40,873 nucleotides of DNA from an uncultured Saprospiraceae bacterium (GTDB lineage Bacteria > Bacteroidota > Bacteroidia > Chitinophagales > Saprospiraceae): the NCBI GenBank assembly GCA_937921555.1, contig CAKZUV010000008.1, positions 1-40,873 on the forward strand. The letters run 5' to 3'. Under the pieces are notes generated by a model. That model was given only the letters and a program-made list of their open reading frames with translations. It searched no databases and had not been told where the DNA came from. Positions 4,702 to 15,685 of the stretch are shown one piece after another. How positions within the stretch are numbered: position 1 is the first letter of the stretch; every line of letters begins with the position of its first letter. Position numbers and translations under genes: made by a program.

Positions 4702-5751
4702 TTATTCACTACCACCAGCAGCGGCATCTACTTTATTTTCCTCCGCGCTTTCGTTTACTTCTGCTAATTCACCTTCATATTCTGTATTTTCAATACTGGC
4801 CTGAATTCCTTTTTCGTTTAAATATTTTGAAAAAATGCTGGAATAACCGTGGGTGACGATAACCCGCGTCGCTTCCGTCATGGCGATAGCTTTGTTCAAA
4901 TCTTTCCAATCGACGTGATCCGATAGCGGAAATCCCCGATCAGCTGCTTTCCGGCGACGGGGACCACGCAGGGTCATCCAACCGCTGGCGACACCAATGG
5001 AGACGGGTTTAAACTTTTTCATCCAGGCGGAATTGAGGGCGGAAGGTGGAGCCAGAATTAGATTTCCGGGGAATAATTTTTTATCTGTCTCTTTCGTAAT
5101 GCGGATAGTCCCAGGTAAAGACACGCCCTGATTTCGGATCACCTGATTGATATTTTCAACTGCTCCGTGTGTGTAAATATTTCCAATAGAAGTATCGAGT
5201 CCACGTAAAATTCGCTGTGCTTTTCCGAGCGAATACCCGGTGATAAAAGTAGTCTTTCCATCCGCCGCATTTTGTCGCCACCAGGCGTTGATAGATGCAA
5301 AAATTTCCTCTTGTGGTTTCCAGTCGTAAACGGGCAGACCAAAGGTACTTTCTGTAATAAAAGTATGGCAGCGGATAGGCTCGAAAGGTTTTGCCAAACC
5401 ATCATCTTCCAGTTTATAATCACCGGAAGCCACCCAGATTTCGCCTTTATGCTCGACGCGAATCTGGGCCGACCCCAAAATATGACCAGCGGGATGAAAA
5501 CTGAATTTCACGCCATTGATGGTGCGGACTTCCCCGAATTTGATCGTTTCCATTTTTATATTCCCCAACCGGTATTTAATGACCGGGGCGGCAATATCAG
5601 TGGCCAGGTAGGCTTTATTTCCCCAGCGCGAATGATCGGCGTGACCATGCGTAATCAGAGCACGCGGCACTGGTTTCCACGGATCAATATAGACATCCGC
5701 CGCCTGGCAGTAGATTCCCTTTGGGGTAAATTTCAGAAGATCTGGTTTCAT
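4702..5751 (-). CDS. Ligase-associated metallo-beta-lactamase DNA exonuclease
   Basis: This 349-residue protein has the metallo-beta-lactamase/beta-CASP-like metal site HGHADH at residues 35-40, then HPAGHILGSAQ, SGDY and a late VTHGYSS. That arrangement matches the SNM1/artemis-like exonucleases encoded beside bacterial ATP-dependent ligases. It should process DNA ends for the downstream ligase. The C-terminal ~20 residues are a loose acidic tail. The ATG at 5749-5751 is the only reasonable start, giving MKPDLLKFTPKGIYC, the usual beginning of the family. It is the first gene of a two-gene unit. Confidence 0.93.
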   Translation of the reverse strand: MKPDLLKFTPKGIYCQAADVYIDPWKPVPRALITHGHADHSRWGNKAYLATDIAAPVIKYRLGNIKMETIKFGEVRTINGVKFSFHPAGHILGSAQIRVEHKGEIWVASGDYKLEDDGLAKPFEPIRCHTFITESTFGLPVYDWKPQEEIFASINAWWRQNAADGKTTFITGYSLGKAQRILRGLDTSIGNIYTHGAVENINQVIRNQGVSLPGTIRITKETDKKLFPGNLILAPPSALNSAWMKKFKPVSIGVASGWMTLRGPRRRKAADRGFPLSDHVDWKDLNKAIAMTEATRVIVTHGYSSIFSKYLNEKGIQASIENTEYEGELAEVNESAEENKVDAAAGGSE

Positions 5752-5880
5752 AATGATGAAACAGCAGCAACCCGTATTTGTTTGACTTGCTGCCTTTTGT
5801 CATTCGAACGATCAGGGTTTTTACAGGTTCAGTTCATTTTATCGGGCTGAACATTTACAAAAGCCCAACCGTTACCACTC

Positions 5881-5888
5881 TAATTTTG
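5881..5888 (+). promoter_or_regulatory. Candidate -7 element of the AI-2E permease gene
   Basis: TAATTTTG fits TAnnTTTG and lies 63 bases ahead of the ATG at 5952. No clear -33 TTTG was found, so support is moderate. Confidence 0.4.
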
Positions 5889-5951
5889 CTTATAGCAGAT
5901 ATACAGATATTTTATTCTATCCACGAGTTCATTTCTTTAAGATAAAACAGG

Positions 5952-7581: not shown

Positions 7582-8799
7582 ATGACTAACGACACTACCA
7601 GCAGAAAATTCTATCAAAAGAAAAGATTTATCATTCCTGCTATTTTAATTTTAGGGCTTATCGTTTTTCGTATTTATTTACCTACTTTAGTTAAAAACTA
7701 CGTCAATGATGTACTGGCGAATGATATTCCGGATTACTTCGGACACGTCGAAGATATCGACATTGCAATCATCCGGGGTGCTTATGTACTCAATGGTTTT
7801 TACCTGAATAAAGTGGATGCCACGACGCAGGTGCCTTTTTTGAACTTCCCGAAAATTGATATTTCAGTAGAATGGGGATCTTTGTTCAAAGGAAAAATTG
7901 TAAGTGAAGTCTACATGTACAATCCGGAAGTTATTTATGTATTAGAAGATATGAGTACGTCCGACGAATCGACCGAAGAAGACTGGACGCAGGCCCTGAA
8001 AGATATTGTTCCTTTGAGTATCAATCATTTTGAAGTCGTCAATGGTAAAATGGCATTTGTGCAGGTTAATGCCGATCCAACGATTGATCTGCAACTGAAC
8101 GGTTTAAACTTTACAGCGGATAATCTTAGAAACGTGGAAGCAGAAAAACATACGCTTCCCTCTCCGGTTTTTGCAGAAGCTACTTCCATTGGAAATGGTA
8201 AATTATCTGTAAATGGAAATGTAAACTTGTTAAAAGAAATTCCGGATATGGACCTTTCTGTAAAATTAGAAAATATAGAAGTAGAGGCACTGAACGATTT
8301 TGCCGACCATTACGGAAAGCTGGACTTTGAAGATGGTGATCTGGGAATGTTTACAGAAATTGCAATTGCCGATGGATTTTTAAAAGGATATTTTAAAGTT
8401 CTCCTGGAGGATGCTAAATTTATTGGGAAGGAAGACAATTTTTTAGAAAAAGTCTGGGAAGGATTCGTTTCTTTCTTTGAATATGTTCTATCCAACAAGG
8501 ACACTGATACCCTCGCTCTAAAAGCTCCGGTAGAAGGTGACCTGAACAACGTAGAAACCAGTATCTGGCCAATTATTGGTAGTATTTTCAAGAATGCTTT
8601 TGTATCTGCTGTAAAAGGAGAAGTCGACGATGAAATTGAATATCAGGATGCAATCGTCGAAAAAAATGAGGAAGAAGAGAAGAAGCTAAAATGGTGGCAG
8701 TTTAAAAAGAAAAAGGAGCGTAAAGAGAGAAAGGAACAGGAGCAACAGGAAGATGAACTGGCAAACAATGACGAAGACGACAACAGCAACAGCGAATAA
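7582..8799 (+). CDS. DUF748/AsmA-like inner-membrane-anchored periplasmic protein
   Basis: The frame gives 405 residues. One N-terminal membrane helix (about 14-32, preceded by KKR) anchors a long beta-rich region with the LxDIDIAIIRGAYVLNGFYLNKV and FPKIDISVEWGSLFKGKIVSEV phrases seen in DUF748/AsmA-like proteins. The phrase GKLSVNGNVNLLKEIPDMDLSVKLENIE is also typical. These are bridge-like proteins thought to act in lipid transport or outer-membrane upkeep. The last ~50 residues are an extreme charged tail (runs of E and K, then DDED/NS), likely disordered. Family assignment rests on pattern; it is probably the second gene of a unit with the 118-residue protein. Confidence 0.7.
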   Translation: MTNDTTSRKFYQKKRFIIPAILILGLIVFRIYLPTLVKNYVNDVLANDIPDYFGHVEDIDIAIIRGAYVLNGFYLNKVDATTQVPFLNFPKIDISVEWGSLFKGKIVSEVYMYNPEVIYVLEDMSTSDESTEEDWTQALKDIVPLSINHFEVVNGKMAFVQVNADPTIDLQLNGLNFTADNLRNVEAEKHTLPSPVFAEATSIGNGKLSVNGNVNLLKEIPDMDLSVKLENIEVEALNDFADHYGKLDFEDGDLGMFTEIAIADGFLKGYFKVLLEDAKFIGKEDNFLEKVWEGFVSFFEYVLSNKDTDTLALKAPVEGDLNNVETSIWPIIGSIFKNAFVSAVKGEVDDEIEYQDAIVEKNEEEEKKLKWWQFKKKKERKERKEQEQQEDELANNDEDDNSNSE

Positions 8800-8811
8800 A
8801 AGGAAAGACTA

Positions 8812-8940
8812 AATGAAGCTCCCCGAGGCAAGCCGTCGGGGTATCGCTCAAAGCTAAACACCGTTAATCGGTAAATGAGTTAATCAGTGTCCCGCTAACG
8901 TATTTATCCGAGGCAGAGCCTCGGAGAATTCTTTTTGATC
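8812..8940. repeat. Interspersed hairpin repeat, copy 2
   Basis: This begins AATGAAGCTCCCCGAGGC and ends GCCTCGGAGAATTC. The left hairpin pairs CCCCGAGGC with GCCGTCGGGG, and the right hairpin is CCGAGGC-AGA-GCCTCGG. Relative to copy 1 the left stem has changed a T:A pair to C:G on both sides. It sits between the convergent AsmA-like and MscS genes; 8941-9104 holds nothing else I recognise. Confidence 0.8.
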
Positions 8941-9104
8941 AACAGGAAATATATAACAAGGGAATACGCTGTTGAAAGTGTTTTAGTAAACAGAATTGTT
9001 ATCCGCTTAAAAGAGCCTTTTTCTAGTAAAGTAAATCACCTCTTGTAGCGATACCGTTAGTCTAACTTGAGGATTATCAATTACTACTTTGAAAATTTGC
9101 TATA

Positions 9105-11365: not shown

Positions 11366-12934
11366 CTAAAATAAGGATGGAAAAAAATAACTGAACAATA
11401 TGATTCCGGCGGTAAACGCTAAAAGTGTTAACACTTTTCCACGGTCTGCATCAAACGTAAAGTTCTCAATGGTCATTCCATCTGCCGCTTTAGGCTTGGT
11501 CGTTAGCAAACTTACCACAACTGAGATAACGAGGGTAATCGCCGCACCGATGGCATTCCACCAAAACCAAAAAACCTCGGGACAGTATAACCATAGATAT
11601 ACATTTACTAAAACGCCGGCCAGCAAACCGGCATTCGCACCGATATGATTGGTTCGCCGAATACCAATGGCAGCAATAAAAGTGGCAAAGATAGGCCCGT
11701 AAAAAACAGACCCGATTTTGTTGATGGCTTCGATGACCGTAGCGGCAATATCTCCGGTATAAAATGCCAGAATAATGCAAACGATTCCCCAAAACAAGGC
11801 AGCGTATTTGGAATAGCGGACATATTTTTCGTCCGGAAGCTTCTTGTCGCGGTTAAAAAAATCTTCGACCGTAGCAGCACTCAAAGAATTGATGGTAGAA
11901 CTCAGAGAAGACATCGCCGCAGAAAAAATGGCCACCATTAAGATACCAATTATGCCGTGTGGCAGATATTCCCGGATAAAAATGGGAATCATCAAATCGG
12001 GTTTATCTACTGGAATCAGCTCGCGGAATTCGGGTAAAGTGGTAACCATGGTTCCGATAATCAATCCCATGATACAGTACACGAGTGTAATTGGAAATCG
12101 CATCAGTCCGTTGCAGAGCAATATTTTACGGACCGTTGAAAGGTCCTTGGCGGAAAACAGTCGCTGCACCTGACTCTGATCGGTACCGTAATAAGAAGCG
12201 TACAGAAAAAATCCGCCCAGTAGCATGGGCCAGAATCCAAACTCACCATCACCGGCAAAACCGTAAGCATCAAAATTAATAACGGTAAGCCGGTCTTCGT
12301 TCACGTTGATCAGAAAATTTTCCCAACCCCCCAGATAATAAATACCACTTCCCAGACAGATTAAAATTCCTAAAAACAGAATTCCCATTTGAATAACGTC
12401 ACCATAAACAACGGCTTTCATTCCTCCCTGATAGGAATAAATCAGCGTGACTACTCCGATAATGATGATCGTGGCCGACATCGGAATGTCCATCACACTG
12501 GTCAGAATCAGGGCCACCGTGTAGATCATTACACTGGTCGCAAAGCTGCGCGAAATCTGAAAAACCAGACTGAGCAGAATACGGGTAGAACTGCTATATC
12601 GTCGTTCCAGGTATTCGTAGACACTGACGATTCCCATTTTGAACATTGGAGGAATCAAAAACACCATCAAAAAAAGCATTGCCAGTGGTACCGCAAATTC
12701 GTAGGTAAGCCATTTCATCCCACCCCCCGCTTTGAGTCCTACGAATGCCGGAGCAGAAATAAAACTAATCGCAGACAATTGCGTAGCCGCCGTACTAATG
12801 GATAATGGAAACCAGTGAAAATCTTTTCCACCTAAAAAATAATCTTTGGCTGACCCCGAACTACTGAAATATTTTCCCAACCATAAAAAACCAAAAATGT
12901 AAATAATGATAACAATGATATCCAGATAGTTCAT
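11366..12934 (-). CDS. Sodium:solute symporter (SSS family)
   Basis: This is a 522-residue, highly hydrophobic protein with about 13-14 membrane helices. SSS-family marks include LSAISFISAPAFVGLKAGGG near 53-72, the helix MVFLIPPMFKMGIVSVYEYLERRY, GGMKAVVYGDVIQMG and ATVEDFFNR near 335. It should import a small polar solute with sodium. The ATG is 2 bases after the stop of the upstream hydrolase gene and the stop is 12 bases before the glycerate kinase gene. I infer a glycosylglycerate or glycerate as cargo; the sequence alone shows only the family. Confidence 0.93.
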   Translation of the reverse strand: MNYLDIIVIIIYIFGFLWLGKYFSSSGSAKDYFLGGKDFHWFPLSISTAATQLSAISFISAPAFVGLKAGGGMKWLTYEFAVPLAMLFLMVFLIPPMFKMGIVSVYEYLERRYSSSTRILLSLVFQISRSFATSVMIYTVALILTSVMDIPMSATIIIIGVVTLIYSYQGGMKAVVYGDVIQMGILFLGILICLGSGIYYLGGWENFLINVNEDRLTVINFDAYGFAGDGEFGFWPMLLGGFFLYASYYGTDQSQVQRLFSAKDLSTVRKILLCNGLMRFPITLVYCIMGLIIGTMVTTLPEFRELIPVDKPDLMIPIFIREYLPHGIIGILMVAIFSAAMSSLSSTINSLSAATVEDFFNRDKKLPDEKYVRYSKYAALFWGIVCIILAFYTGDIAATVIEAINKIGSVFYGPIFATFIAAIGIRRTNHIGANAGLLAGVLVNVYLWLYCPEVFWFWWNAIGAAITLVISVVVSLLTTKPKAADGMTIENFTFDADRGKVLTLLAFTAGIILFSYFFPSLF

Positions 12935-12936
12935 AG

Positions 12937-14244
12937 TCAGGCATTTAAAAAGTCGATGATGGAAGAAGCAGTCCAGGAAAAATTATTTCCTCCGTAGCCT
13001 TTTTCAAGATTAGAAGTTTTGGATTTTTCGGCTTCAAAATATTCGTAAAATCCGAGTTTTTCTACTAATTCAATTAAGTCCCCTCGTACGATTTCGGCCA
13101 ATTCTGAATAACCATAATTACGTAGTCCGTGGTGAATCATCCAGTTCATCTGTGGCCAGATCGGACCACGCCAGTAACGTTTAGAATCAAAGAGCGGACT
13201 GTCTACGTCAAAGCTGGGACAAAGATAAAAACCACGTTCATGGATTCCCCGCAGATAGTTTGCGATGTGTGCCGCCTGTGCTTTGGTCGCCACACCCGCA
13301 AAAAGCGGAACAATGCCACCTATCTCCCGGTGAAGAATTTGCCGCTGATTGCGCTGATCGTAGGTCGTAAAAAACTGTAAATCTTCGTTCCAGAATTTTT
13401 TAGAGAAATTAGCTTTGCTTTTCGCCTGCCAATCAGCCAGATTTCCGGCGTCCAGATGGAGTTTTCCGGCAATATTCAGTAAAGCTTTGTTGGAACGAAT
13501 CAGAATCGCATTCATCATACAATCCTGAATAAGAAACGGGCTTTCTTCCGCAATTCCAGGACCATCGTACTGGTGTTTTTTTCCAAGTTCTAAAAGGTAA
13601 ACATACCGGTCGTAGTGGTCTTGCGTCGGACGTTCGGAAGCATCCGAAATAGCGGTATCTTTCCGGGTATAAGGTGGAATATCAGCCGTCTCAAGATCAA
13701 TCCCATTTAGGGGTTGATCCCAAAGTGGAGAATTATCTCGTCCGGATTCCCAGGGATGAAAAATGAAGAAAATTCCTTCTTGTTCTACGTCTCGGTAGGT
13801 ATAGAGAAATTCGTGATATTTTAAAACTTTTGGAAAAATCTCTTTTACAAAATCTACTACTTCTTCGTTTTGCTTTCCATAAAGTGTAAGCAAAGATTCC
13901 AGGACAAATCCAAAAACCGGAGGCTGGGTGATTCCGGAAGATTTGGGATGTTGCGGTGCCCCGGAATTGACTTTAGTATTCCAGAAATCATAATTAGGAA
14001 AATAGGTTTTCTCATTTTCACTATGAAAAATAATATGTGGCAACAAGCCATTTTCCCACTGTCCGGAAAACATAGACCGGATCTCAGTTATCGCTTTTTC
14101 TAAATCATGATGCGCCAAACCTAATGCGACGAAGCCAGAATCCCAATGCCATTGAAAGGGGTAAAGTTTACTGGTAGGAATCGTAAATCCACCTTTCCAG
14201 TTTTGATCTAATATTTTTCTTGCCCGCGAAGTTAAATCCATCAA
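12937..14244 (-). CDS. GH63-like mannosyl-/glucosylglycerate hydrolase (MGH1-like)
   Basis: The frame gives 435 residues, no signal peptide, so cytosolic. The (alpha/alpha)6-barrel family marks are FQWHWDSGFVALGL at 30-43, HPWESGRDNSP at 163-173 with likely general acid Asp170, RYWRGPIWPQMNWMIHHGL near 350 and GYGGNNFSWTAS at 416-427. Length and motifs match the Thermus mannosylglycerate hydrolase and mycobacterial glucosylglycerate hydrolase group. The general base should be a Glu in 400-414, but I cannot pick which one. First gene of a three-gene unit ending in glycerate kinase, which fits release of glycerate. Trehalase-like or other GH63/GH37 activities remain possible. Confidence 0.82.
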   Translation of the reverse strand: MMDLTSRARKILDQNWKGGFTIPTSKLYPFQWHWDSGFVALGLAHHDLEKAITEIRSMFSGQWENGLLPHIIFHSENEKTYFPNYDFWNTKVNSGAPQHPKSSGITQPPVFGFVLESLLTLYGKQNEEVVDFVKEIFPKVLKYHEFLYTYRDVEQEGIFFIFHPWESGRDNSPLWDQPLNGIDLETADIPPYTRKDTAISDASERPTQDHYDRYVYLLELGKKHQYDGPGIAEESPFLIQDCMMNAILIRSNKALLNIAGKLHLDAGNLADWQAKSKANFSKKFWNEDLQFFTTYDQRNQRQILHREIGGIVPLFAGVATKAQAAHIANYLRGIHERGFYLCPSFDVDSPLFDSKRYWRGPIWPQMNWMIHHGLRNYGYSELAEIVRGDLIELVEKLGFYEYFEAEKSKTSNLEKGYGGNNFSWTASSIIDFLNA

Positions 14245-14366
14245 GCTAAGGTATAAAAAGAAGGGAAAACTTAATAGCTTTTTTTAAAATCTTTAAAAAT
14301 GGGAACTCAAGCAAATATTTTTTAGTTATACGCTCGACAACAAAAAATATAAAACTAAAAATTATC

Positions 14367-15119
14367 ATGGCTAATAAACTTCATGAGATCCTGGCAGTAG
14401 AACAGGATCGTAAAAACCGCGCTAATATTATCATTGGCGAAACCAAAAAGCGTTTTACAAAACATGCAACCGACTTTGAGGGGTTGGTGAAAAAGTATAT
14501 TCCGACCGAAGAAAACGCCGAGGAAATTCCGGATGAGACCAAGGAAATTTCGCTTACCGTAAAGGAAGCTTTAGATCAGGCACTCGTCCCGGTGGCAGTA
14601 GCCATCAACGCGACTTTAAGTAAAGAAGAAACCAATGCATCTGGTAAGGCGAAGGCGGAACTAATCGTTGGTAAAAAGAACTTTGGTGAATTTGCCGCTA
14701 CTACCCTTTTGGCTTTAGAATCTAATCTGGGTAAATTACTGGATCTGTACCGGGCCATTCCAACTTTGGATGCTGCGCGTAAATATCAGTTTGACAAAAA
14801 GATCAACCGATACCGTTCTGATGAGGAAATTAAATTCCGAACCATCAAACGTCCCAAGGTAATCGTAAAATACGAAGCGACCGATAAGCACCCGGCACAG
14901 ACAGAGTTACTGAATCTGGATTTCCAGGTGGGTAAGTATTTAACTACTTATTTTTCTGGTAAAATCACGCAGACTCAAAAATCTACTTTGGTAGAAAAAT
15001 TAGAACAGTTTATCGAAGCCGTCAAGGTTGCCCGTGCCAAGGCTAACAACGTAGATGTTAGCAATGTAAAATTGGCAGATGCTATTTTTGACTATTTACA
15101 CAAGGATGTGTTTGTTTAA
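14367..15119 (+). CDS. Unrecognised 250-residue protein upstream of a tRNA-mimic RNA
   Basis: I do not recognise the family with confidence. It is soluble, lysine-rich, has no signal or membrane segment, and is mostly helical. An N-terminal helical part (HEILAVEQDRKNRANIIIGETKKRF) is followed by an acidic loop (EENAEEIPDETKE) and a helical core. A basic stretch comes next (about 150-180: KKINRYRSDEEIKFRTIKRPKVIVKYEAT), then a C-terminal helix pair ending in KDVFV. It starts at ATG 14367 after an A/T-rich leader, divergent from the hydrolase operon. Codon use looks like that of the neighbours. No ORF intervenes before the Y-RNA-like and tRNA genes downstream, so a functional link with these RNAs is an inference from position. 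It is not Ro60: too short, with no vWA/MIDAS signature. Confidence 0.8.
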   Translation: MANKLHEILAVEQDRKNRANIIIGETKKRFTKHATDFEGLVKKYIPTEENAEEIPDETKEISLTVKEALDQALVPVAVAINATLSKEETNASGKAKAELIVGKKNFGEFAATTLLALESNLGKLLDLYRAIPTLDAARKYQFDKKINRYRSDEEIKFRTIKRPKVIVKYEATDKHPAQTELLNLDFQVGKYLTTYFSGKITQTQKSTLVEKLEQFIEAVKVARAKANNVDVSNVKLADAIFDYLHKDVFV

Positions 15120-15148
15120 AAATGTTTCCGGCAAACGTAAAATAACCG

Positions 15149-15234
15149 CGATTGAAGATAATGCGACCACGCTGTGGTCGTCTCTCAATCGTGGGGGCGC
15201 CGGTGGTTAACATAATGAGACCGCTCTGCGGTCT
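15149..15234. repeat. Two related palindromic hairpins
   Basis: Hairpin one joins CGATTGA (15149-15155) with TCAATCG (15185-15191) and, inside it, CGACCAC with GTGGTCG around loop GCT. Hairpin two is AGACCGC-TCT-GCGGTCT at 15218-15234. Both follow ATAATG(C/A)GACC, so they look like two degenerate copies of one REP-like palindrome. They may stop transcription of the preceding gene, but neither has a good T-run. 15235-15388 shows nothing beyond a possible promoter. Confidence 0.55.
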
Positions 15235-15373
15235 TTCGTCGTAAGAAAAAATATTACAGATTTTTTTAAATATAAAAAATATTGGAGATAGCTTTAATCT
15301 GAGTTTTAGTTTAACAAGCTCCCTGACACCTTCACTGACAGGCGGGCCCAATTAGATTCAGCGTTTCGCTCCA

Positions 15374-15381
15374 TAGTTTTA
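15374..15381 (+). promoter_or_regulatory. Near-consensus -7 element ahead of the Y-RNA-like gene
   Basis: TAGTTTTA differs from TAnnTTTG at the last base and lies 8-15 bases ahead of the first paired base of the RNA, about where a start site would be needed. Weak support. Confidence 0.25.
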
Positions 15382-15388
15382 GTTTTAA

Positions 15389-15553
15389 TTGGTTTAAAAA
15401 TACAACGTTTGTTATTTTACAAGGCTATTGGTCAGCGGTTCGAATCCGCTCTTTCCTGCTACGCGGTCAGGCGTTTACTCAATACAGGAAAGTAGCTCAG
15501 GGGTAGAGCAAGGCTATGATGTAAAATAGAATAATAAGCGGTTTTTAAACCAA
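15389..15553 (+). ncRNA. Bacterial Y RNA (YrlA)-like RNA with a circularly permuted tRNA mimic
   Basis: The two ends form a long stem: TTGGTTTAAAAA (15389-15400) with TTTTTAAACCAA (15542-15553), CGTTTGTTATT (15406-15416) with AATAATAAGCG (15530-15540), and TTACA (15417-15421) with TGTAA (15520-15524). Inside lies a tRNA in permuted order. The T arm AGCGG-TTCGAAT-CCGCT (15434-15450) comes first, then the 3' acceptor strand CTTTCCTG, a 26-base closing loop with an ACGC/GCGT hairpin, the 5' acceptor strand CAGGAAAG (15485-15492), TA, and the D arm GCTC-AGGGGTA-GAGC (15495-15509). The long stem occupies the anticodon-arm position. This is the published architecture of YrlA RNAs, which bind Ro60 by the stem and mimic tRNA at the closed end. 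No Ro60 gene is in the window. A permuted tRNA gene is the main alternative. Confidence 0.75.
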
Positions 15554-15554
15554 C

Positions 15555-15572
15555 GTGCCGATGACCCGGCAC
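15555..15572 (+). other. Hairpin between the Y-RNA-like RNA and the tRNA
   Basis: GTGCCG-ATGACC-CGGCAC forms a 6-bp GC-rich stem. It starts one base after the long stem and ends one base before the tRNA acceptor stem. It could be a processing spacer; it lacks a T-run, so it is not a terminator. Confidence 0.5.
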
Positions 15573-15573
15573 C

Positions 15574-15646
15574 GATGTTATAGTTCAATTGGAAGAATGT
15601 CGCATTCATAACGCGAAGGTTGATGGTTCGATCCCATCTAACATCA
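15574..15646 (+). tRNA. Divergent tRNA with CAU anticodon
   Basis: A full cloverleaf folds. Acceptor GATGTTA pairs with TAACATC (7/7) and the discriminator is A. The D arm is GTTC-AATTGGAA-GAAT, the anticodon stem TCGCA/CGCGA with an A:C mismatch at 31:39, and the anticodon loop TTCATAA gives CAU at 15607-15609. The variable loop is AGGTT and the T arm GATGG-TTCGATC-CCATC. CCA is not encoded. CAU could mean Met, initiator or the lysidine-modified Ile tRNA; the initiator is unlikely, as there are no three G:C pairs in the anticodon stem and position 1:72 is paired. The weak D stem and the mismatch suggest a non-standard or accessory tRNA. Confidence 0.75.
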
Positions 15647-15648
15647 AA

Positions 15649-15685
15649 GGGTGATTACAAGGCTAGCGTAATCACCCATTTTTAT
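15649..15685 (+). terminator. Rho-independent terminator of the RNA locus
   Basis: GGGTGATTAC (15649-15658) pairs perfectly with GTAATCACCC (15668-15677) around AAGGCTAGC and is followed by ATTTTTATT. It begins three bases after the tRNA, so it closes the Y-RNA-like/tRNA transcript. Confidence 0.85.

Follow-up and report, generated by a model that had tools for sequence, protein, structure and literature searches.

What kind of RNA lies behind the gene of a 250-residue protein in an uncultured Saprospiraceae bacterium, and how the two belong together, is the question raised by a locus of contig CAKZUV010000008.1 (assembly GCA_937921555.1), whose whole stretch of 40,873 nucleotides (nt) was analysed and is referred to here as the window. 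An earlier interpretation based on the letters of this DNA alone, called here the sequence-only reading, saw in the locus a bacterial Y RNA of the YrlA type with a permuted tRNA body, accompanied by a protein that may be an unrecognised partner of such RNAs and by no Ro60 gene. Results of our analysis indicate that the protein is a member of the DUF7873 family, and that proteins of this family and an RNA encoded directly downstream of their genes very probably form a widespread RNA-protein particle, as judged from their conserved arrangement in bacterial and phage genomes.

The permuted order of tRNA elements on a long stem, proposed for positions 15389-15553, was borne out by the unconstrained minimum-energy fold of positions 15380-15560, which consists of exactly the permuted-tRNA helices atop a long terminal stem and the energy of which (-54.6 kcal/mol) was not reached by any of 200 shuffled sequences (-38.5 +/- 3.7 kcal/mol, z -4.3). 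Our covariance model of the unit, R1, matches positions 15420-15523 at 54 bits, the window sequence itself being among the 53 of the model. The upstream open reading frame (ORF; 14367-15119, forward strand) and the downstream CAU tRNA (15574-15646) are present as described, and so is the strong hairpin that follows this tRNA at 15649-15677 and is succeeded by a T-run, ATTTTTAT. What had to be revised is the extent of the RNA: the module does occupy 15389-15553, but the RNA locus reaches further in the 5' direction, to at least 15283, and takes in an array of hexamers as well as a GCUCC motif that is conserved. The whole RNA-like region (15283-15677, forward strand) starts about 160 nt after the ORF. 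The order of elements that we propose for the family, namely the DUF7873 gene, array 1, the core of array 2, the permuted tRNA, and a hairpin with the loop (A/C)GGNUA, is found in the window (Table 1).

Table 1. Features of the DUF7873 locus in the window (positions in nt of the window).
Feature	Position	Strand	Basis or remark
DUF7873 protein gene, 250 aa	14367-15119	+	PF25283, E 2.7e-73; probable RNA-binding partner
Closing helix of the array domain, 5' strand UGGAG	15283-15287	+	pairs with CUCCA 15369-15373; window minimum-energy fold
Array 1, four in-phase hexamers, YUNA cores UUUA 15293, CUGA 15299, UUUA 15305, UUAA 15311	15291-15314	+	YTNA spacing of 6 nt
Hairpin segment, putative counterpart of the first permuted tRNA (module A) of many relatives	15315-15351	+	layout comparison, window fold
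Array 2, conserved core CGCUCCA 15367-15373	15352-15388	+	motif score, viral-contig pattern scan
Permuted tRNA-like module with long basal stem (module B)	15389-15553	+	fold z -4.3; covariance model R1
T arm	15434-15450	+	fold, covariation
Acceptor 3' strand	15451-15457	+	covariation, 53 sequences
Loop between the two acceptor strands; NCCA present in roughly one third of relatives, absent here	15458-15485	+	window fold, unit comparison
Acceptor 5' strand	15486-15492	+	covariation
D arm	15495-15509	+	covariation
Normal-order tRNA, anticodon CAU, within the RNA locus	15574-15646	+	ARAGORN; Rfam tRNA 64 bits
3' terminal hairpin, conserved loop AAGGCUAGC	15649-15677	+	loop motif; T-run follows

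The protein of the window matches PF25283 (DUF7873) with 247 bits at a gathering score of 27 (E 2.7e-73), and hence belongs to an existing Pfam family, albeit one without a described function. It has no match in PHROGs, NCBIfam, or the defence-protein library PADLOC, and the open-access literature searched contains no mention of DUF7873. To see how regularly such an RNA accompanies the family, 160 DUF7873 loci were gathered, 80 of them from bacterial genomes and 80 from viral contigs. The bacterial pattern search gave at least 588 matches, and 570 among the 588 matches listed encode relatives. The 148 testable loci come from Bacteroidota, Actinomycetota, Spirochaetes, Chloroflexi, and phages. 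With a strict rule, according to which a permuted-tRNA unit has to lie within 600 nt 3' of the DUF7873 stop codon and on the same strand, 138 of the 148 loci contain a unit (70/77 viral, 7/9 from Bacteroidota, and 61/62 from Actinomycetota and others), as compared with 1/148 on the antisense strand, 4/149 upstream, 7/144 at +600 to 1200, 2/141 at +1200 to 1800, and 0/152 inside the gene. Four of the ten loci that fail the rule (L130, L125, L126, and L141 in our numbering) show a unit by the covariance model, which in L141, as well as in the stronger match of L125 and L126, is situated beyond 600 nt; another one, L123, looks decayed.

The same association emerges when the protein is ignored. 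When all viral contigs were scanned for the pattern of array 2 alone, 11 loci were obtained, all of the DUF7873 type: in ten of them a DUF7873 gene lies directly upstream, and the eleventh, in which the RNA is complete, starts at the contig edge. The expectation that homologues of the protein would recur beside such RNAs has thus come true, and the link between the protein and the RNA, inferred from gene neighbourhood, is strongly supported. Of the view that the protein may be an unrecognised RNA partner, a dedicated partnership is supported, and the lack of recognition is not.

Two alternative explanations bear directly on these counts. Head-to-tail ordinary tRNA genes or decayed tRNA arrays might imitate a permuted tRNA, and tandem tRNA-Asn genes indeed do so. 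Nevertheless, ARAGORN finds no such pair at the window locus, arrays and motifs occupy the places of anticodon arms, the flanks equivalent to the anticodon stem covary (see below), and the control regions match in at most 7 of 144 cases; for the locus set as a whole this artefact is refuted, and its residual probability is minute. It could also be supposed that the RNA acts only in cis, as a 3' untranslated region of the DUF7873 message that recruits RNase P and through which DUF7873 regulates its own mRNA, with no function in trans. This would agree with the position of the RNA, which nearly always lies 3' of the gene and shares its strand, at a median distance of 125-205 nt from the stop codon. 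However, a processing signal would need less than the set of elements kept over several phyla, with its two modules, its phased arrays, a distal motif, and a terminal hairpin, which makes a purely cis-acting role improbable.

The comparison of loci leads to a predicted RNA of about 400 nt, in which array 1, module A, array 2, module B, an optional tRNA, and a 3' hairpin follow one another. Module B is a permuted tRNA, and so is module A, unless, as in the window, a hairpin takes its place. In an alignment of 53 divergent units, built without the use of structure, 88.9% of the cells of the permuted helices are paired (59.6% in shuffled controls) and the covariation score is 0.775 (0.220 in shuffled controls), dropping to 0.20 if the partners are slid by one base; the permuted pairings are thus supported by covariation across relatives, as the sequence-only reading required. 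The flanks that are equivalent to the anticodon stem provide the cleanest test, because they were not used in the detection of the units. They form at least 5 base pairs (bp) in 65% of 149 units as compared with 13% when partners are exchanged between loci, and they are spaced as in a real tRNA, the D stem being followed by 1 nt and the T stem preceded by 3-6 nt. Therefore, the geometry of a tRNA is retained as far as position 43, where the scaffold replaces the anticodon arm.

Among 195 units, 68 carry NCCA immediately behind the acceptor strand, as do 51 of 102 viral units, a sign that enzymes of tRNA processing may open some modules in the loop. In loci with two units, the discriminator base is A in 52/61 of modules A and U in 45/61 of modules B, and position 74 is C in 107/122 units, although many of these loci come from close Streptomyces relatives and are not independent. 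Such features could point to a tmRNA-like translation factor, whose modules would be cut at the loop, obtain CCA, be charged with an amino acid, and go into the ribosome, DUF7873 taking the part of SmpB. Against this, the acceptor stem sequences vary freely, so that no shared charging identity is evident, and most bacterial units lack an encoded CCA; we regard this explanation as quite unlikely. The tmRNA model (RF00023) matches the window with 14.1 bits only, at a cut-off of 47. A tmRNA (114 bits, 5502-5892) is encoded alongside DUF7873 in one phage contig (L177).

Array 1 is usually composed of four in-phase RNYUNA hexamers. After masking of the tRNA units, 83 non-redundant loci contained 206 pairs of YTNA at a distance of 6 nt, as compared with 32 +/- 6 in dinucleotide shuffles (z about 30), and runs of four or more YTNA occur in 23 loci, with 0.1 expected. 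Pairing of array 1 with the linker that follows the first module shows no excess (6.80 vs. 6.55 +/- 0.19). Of 89 non-redundant loci, 35 reach a score of at least 22/26 with the consensus of array 2, YUNAGRYUMUYGCUCCA-RNYUNAGCA, and none of 445 shuffles does so; as the motif was read from the same loci before scoring, the comparison with shuffles bears on its strength but not on its discovery. GGAGC, located just 5' of array 1, is a possible pairing partner of the GCUCC core, and compensatory pairs of this closing helix are seen in other loci (UGGACA:UGUCCA and CAAGCAA:UUGCUUG), where the mean helix of 5.5 exceeds that with shuffled partners (5.17 +/- 0.12) modestly (z about 2.9). The heptamer UUAAACG is present in 19 of 76 loci (0.9 expected), and an ordinary tRNA is found within 700 nt in 7/9 Bacteroidota and 30/80 viral loci. 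In four loci (L110, L116, L120, and L163), anticodon-like hairpins with a CUUGAAA loop were noticed 3' of the last permuted unit, near the place that an ordinary tRNA takes in other loci. The RNA ends with a GC-rich hairpin, whose loop conforms to (A/C)GGNUA in 51 of 61 cases (9.9 +/- 2.9 expected). Many loci contain no T-run after this hairpin, and hence it is not only a terminator. Both the motif of array 2 and the loop of the 3' hairpin are conserved across phyla.

The AlphaFold2 model of DUF7873 is confident, with a predicted local distance difference test (pLDDT) score of 94.7. The heptapeptide TDKHPAQ (residues 172-178) is invariant in the family. Both confident models place it on the outermost end of a long beta hairpin, which would make a natural RNA contact. 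Among the non-significant Foldseek matches of two models (best E 0.019, TM 0.1-0.14), many are backbone subunits of the Cas7 type, which hold RNA at intervals of about six bases. As TM-scores near 0.1 are far from a significant structural similarity, DUF7873 could not be assigned to the RNA filament proteins of Cas7 type, and these matches are kept as a lead only. The neighbouring genes of five Actinomycetota loci revealed no consistent further partner, although some ORFs picked in this GC-rich DNA may be in wrong frames.

Taken together, these features lead us to propose, with a probability of about 0.6, a two-component ribonucleoprotein, whose RNA would offer its arrays as the binding site of DUF7873 and would display tRNA mimics. 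The proposal builds on the observed linkage, RNA architecture, covariation, and phased arrays, and on the independence of Ro60 that is described below; the binding of the arrays by DUF7873 we infer from the regularity of the repeats, the lack of excess pairing with the linker, and the location of TDKHPAQ at a hairpin tip. The non-coding RNA of about 400 nt immediately 3' of the DUF7873 gene would serve as a scaffold, whose two arrays, with their RNYUNA hexamers and GCUCC motif, would be closed by the short helix and bound by several DUF7873 subunits, approximately one per hexamer. One or two permuted tRNA modules would stand out from this platform, presenting the tRNA elbow and the acceptor end, with the anticodon end used as the stem that joins them to it. 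By analogy with the binding of PNPase by the tRNA-like domain of YrlA (PMC8394870), the modules may dock a tRNA-binding factor of the cell, for example a nuclease that targets tRNA, an enzyme that modifies or repairs it, or an exonuclease (PNPase); the identity of this factor is far less certain than the architecture. The logic would resemble that of Ro60 and YrlA tethering PNPase, although both the protein and the RNA platform differ. In modules with an NCCA-bearing loop, a nick could be introduced there by RNase P and 3' processing, comparable to that of two-piece tmRNA.

Several observations weigh against this proposal. Five DUF7873 loci (L033, L035, L051, L148, and L149) have no adjacent permuted tRNA. 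Because the search for units already required pairing in the T, acceptor, and D helices, the covariation of these helices was partly selected. Finally, a Foldseek search of the PDB and BFVD revealed no significant structural relative of DUF7873, and so its fold gives no support for RNA binding. More tentatively still, and with some doubt on our part, DUF7873 might polymerise on the arrays into a ring or a short filament, in which each hexamer would be occupied by one subunit and each YUNA core gripped by the KHPAQ hairpin of that subunit. The particle would then make a third class of tRNA-mimic particles beside tmRNA-SmpB and Y RNA-Ro60, holding two mimics in fixed geometry and having its loops processed to free CCA ends.

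The occurrence of the system in phages invites another explanation, according to which the modules, having an elbow and an acceptor end but no anticodon loop, are decoys that titrate tRNA-cleaving nucleases or tRNA-targeting toxins or shield against them, which would be why phages keep the system among their tRNA genes. DUF7873 is encoded in 65 phage records, within large tRNA arrays in the two phages that we read in most detail, and a tRNA gene is located nearby in 46 of 80 viral loci. Moreover, YrlA has been proposed to be a competitive inhibitor of an anticodon nuclease (PMC7790460). On the other hand, the gene is single-copy on many bacterial chromosomes, being present in 92 of 198 genomes (about half) sampled from one Streptomyces order, the protein has no counterpart in the defence-protein library, and the phased arrays would be left unexplained. 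A counter-defence role is therefore unlikely in our opinion, though it seems the strongest of the alternatives.

The question that remains is whether the RNA is an ordinary YrlA Y RNA, serving a Ro60 protein encoded elsewhere in the genome. Its fold and covariation do reveal D, T, and acceptor arms that make up a permuted tRNA-like module, and in a search of 601 bases it obtained an E value of 5.9e-6 with the YrlA model RF02553. The score itself (35.1 bits) is well below the cut-off of 69, and head-to-tail tRNA-Asn genes of Streptomyces, which mimic a permuted tRNA, score 38-41 bits with the same model (L204, L205, and L211, around 1477-1629). Since tandem tRNA genes score as high, a sub-threshold match indicates tRNA arms and not YrlA, and such gene pairs are a trap for YrlA annotation. 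No match above the cut-off was found in any of the 38 DUF7873 genomes searched. The identification as YrlA made by the sequence-only reading, as well as membership of the RNA in this family, is accordingly rejected.

Nor does the system depend on Ro60. The earlier statement that there is no Ro60 gene holds for the locus, where no TROVE gene is encoded, but not for the genome, which carries one on another contig (C355, 13181-13921; locus L013, 10047-11507), closely preceded by two ordinary tRNAs; a permuted unit was not found near it. TROVE was detected in 18 of 38 DUF7873 genomes (absent from 20) and in 3 of 50 DUF7873 viral records (47 without it, some of them fragments). The 198 genomes of the Streptomyces order comprise 92 with DUF7873 and 110 with TROVE, including 58 with both, 34 with DUF7873 alone, and 52 with TROVE alone (p 0.06), so that the two genes occur nearly independently there. 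In favour of a connection, Ro60 is over-represented among relatives of the window bacterium that encode DUF7873 (5/10 vs. 12/189, Fisher p 0.0005, uncorrected for kinship). Deinobacterium chartae, the sole control genome with DUF7873, is also the sole one with TROVE. However, in genomes that contain both systems the loci are separate, and those of Ro60 have YrlA units of their own, with a short acceptor, a tight loop, and no hexamer array (L194 and L195). Rhizobium phage RHph_TM21B (L023) carries both in one tRNA cluster, about 4 kb apart, with permuted-tRNA units upstream of TROVE and another one behind DUF7873 (12751-15232 and 8001-9037). Taking these data together, we consider an ordinary Y RNA of Ro60 highly improbable.

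Only the tRNA and tmRNA families of Rfam reach their curated cut-offs in 18 representative loci. No paper of the open-access literature joins a permuted tRNA with a Y RNA; subscription papers and preprints, including the 2014 YrlA survey of Chen et al., were outside this search, and some of these RNAs may have been noticed before as YrlA. The partner protein, arrays, tandem modules, and terminal hairpin of the DUF7873-RNA system occur in no other system that we found, and the module layout is known from YrlA. DUF7873, common in Streptomyces relatives and in many phages, thereby gains a candidate RNA partner, and Rfam a candidate family of about 400 nt not yet included in it. As the permuted tRNA module of Y RNAs is found also with an unrelated protein, what this module docks onto becomes testable in Streptomyces.

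Among known systems, the closest is YrlA/Ro60 (RF02553, RYPER), which likewise combines a permuted tRNA module on a long stem with a gene beside that of the protein partner, and in which the tRNA-like domain binds PNPase while the stem binds Rsr (PMC8394870). The partner here is DUF7873, which is unrelated to TROVE, and the RNA of about 400 nt contains hexamer arrays, the GCUCC motif, the (A/C)GGNUA hairpin, and often two modules; its acceptor is of 7 bp, often with encoded CCA, it scores below the Rfam cut-off, and it occurs without Ro60. Two-piece tmRNA with SmpB also has acceptor strands reversed around a loop able to carry CCA and a tRNA elbow without an anticodon arm, but a tag reading frame is a feature of tmRNA, whereas the DUF7873 system involves several modules and repeat arrays and no SmpB. 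In permuted tRNA genes of algae and archaea, the 3' half similarly precedes the 5' half; the modules described here have no complete anticodon arm, and their anticodon stem runs into the scaffold, so that simple circularisation would not produce a working tRNA. Finally, the regular repeats of a short motif would suit an oligomeric protein, as they do in the case of TRAP or of the Cas7 backbone with its pitch of about 6 nt; DUF7873 differs in that none of its fold matches is significant (best E 0.02, TM about 0.14), and its oligomerisation is a proposal of this work.
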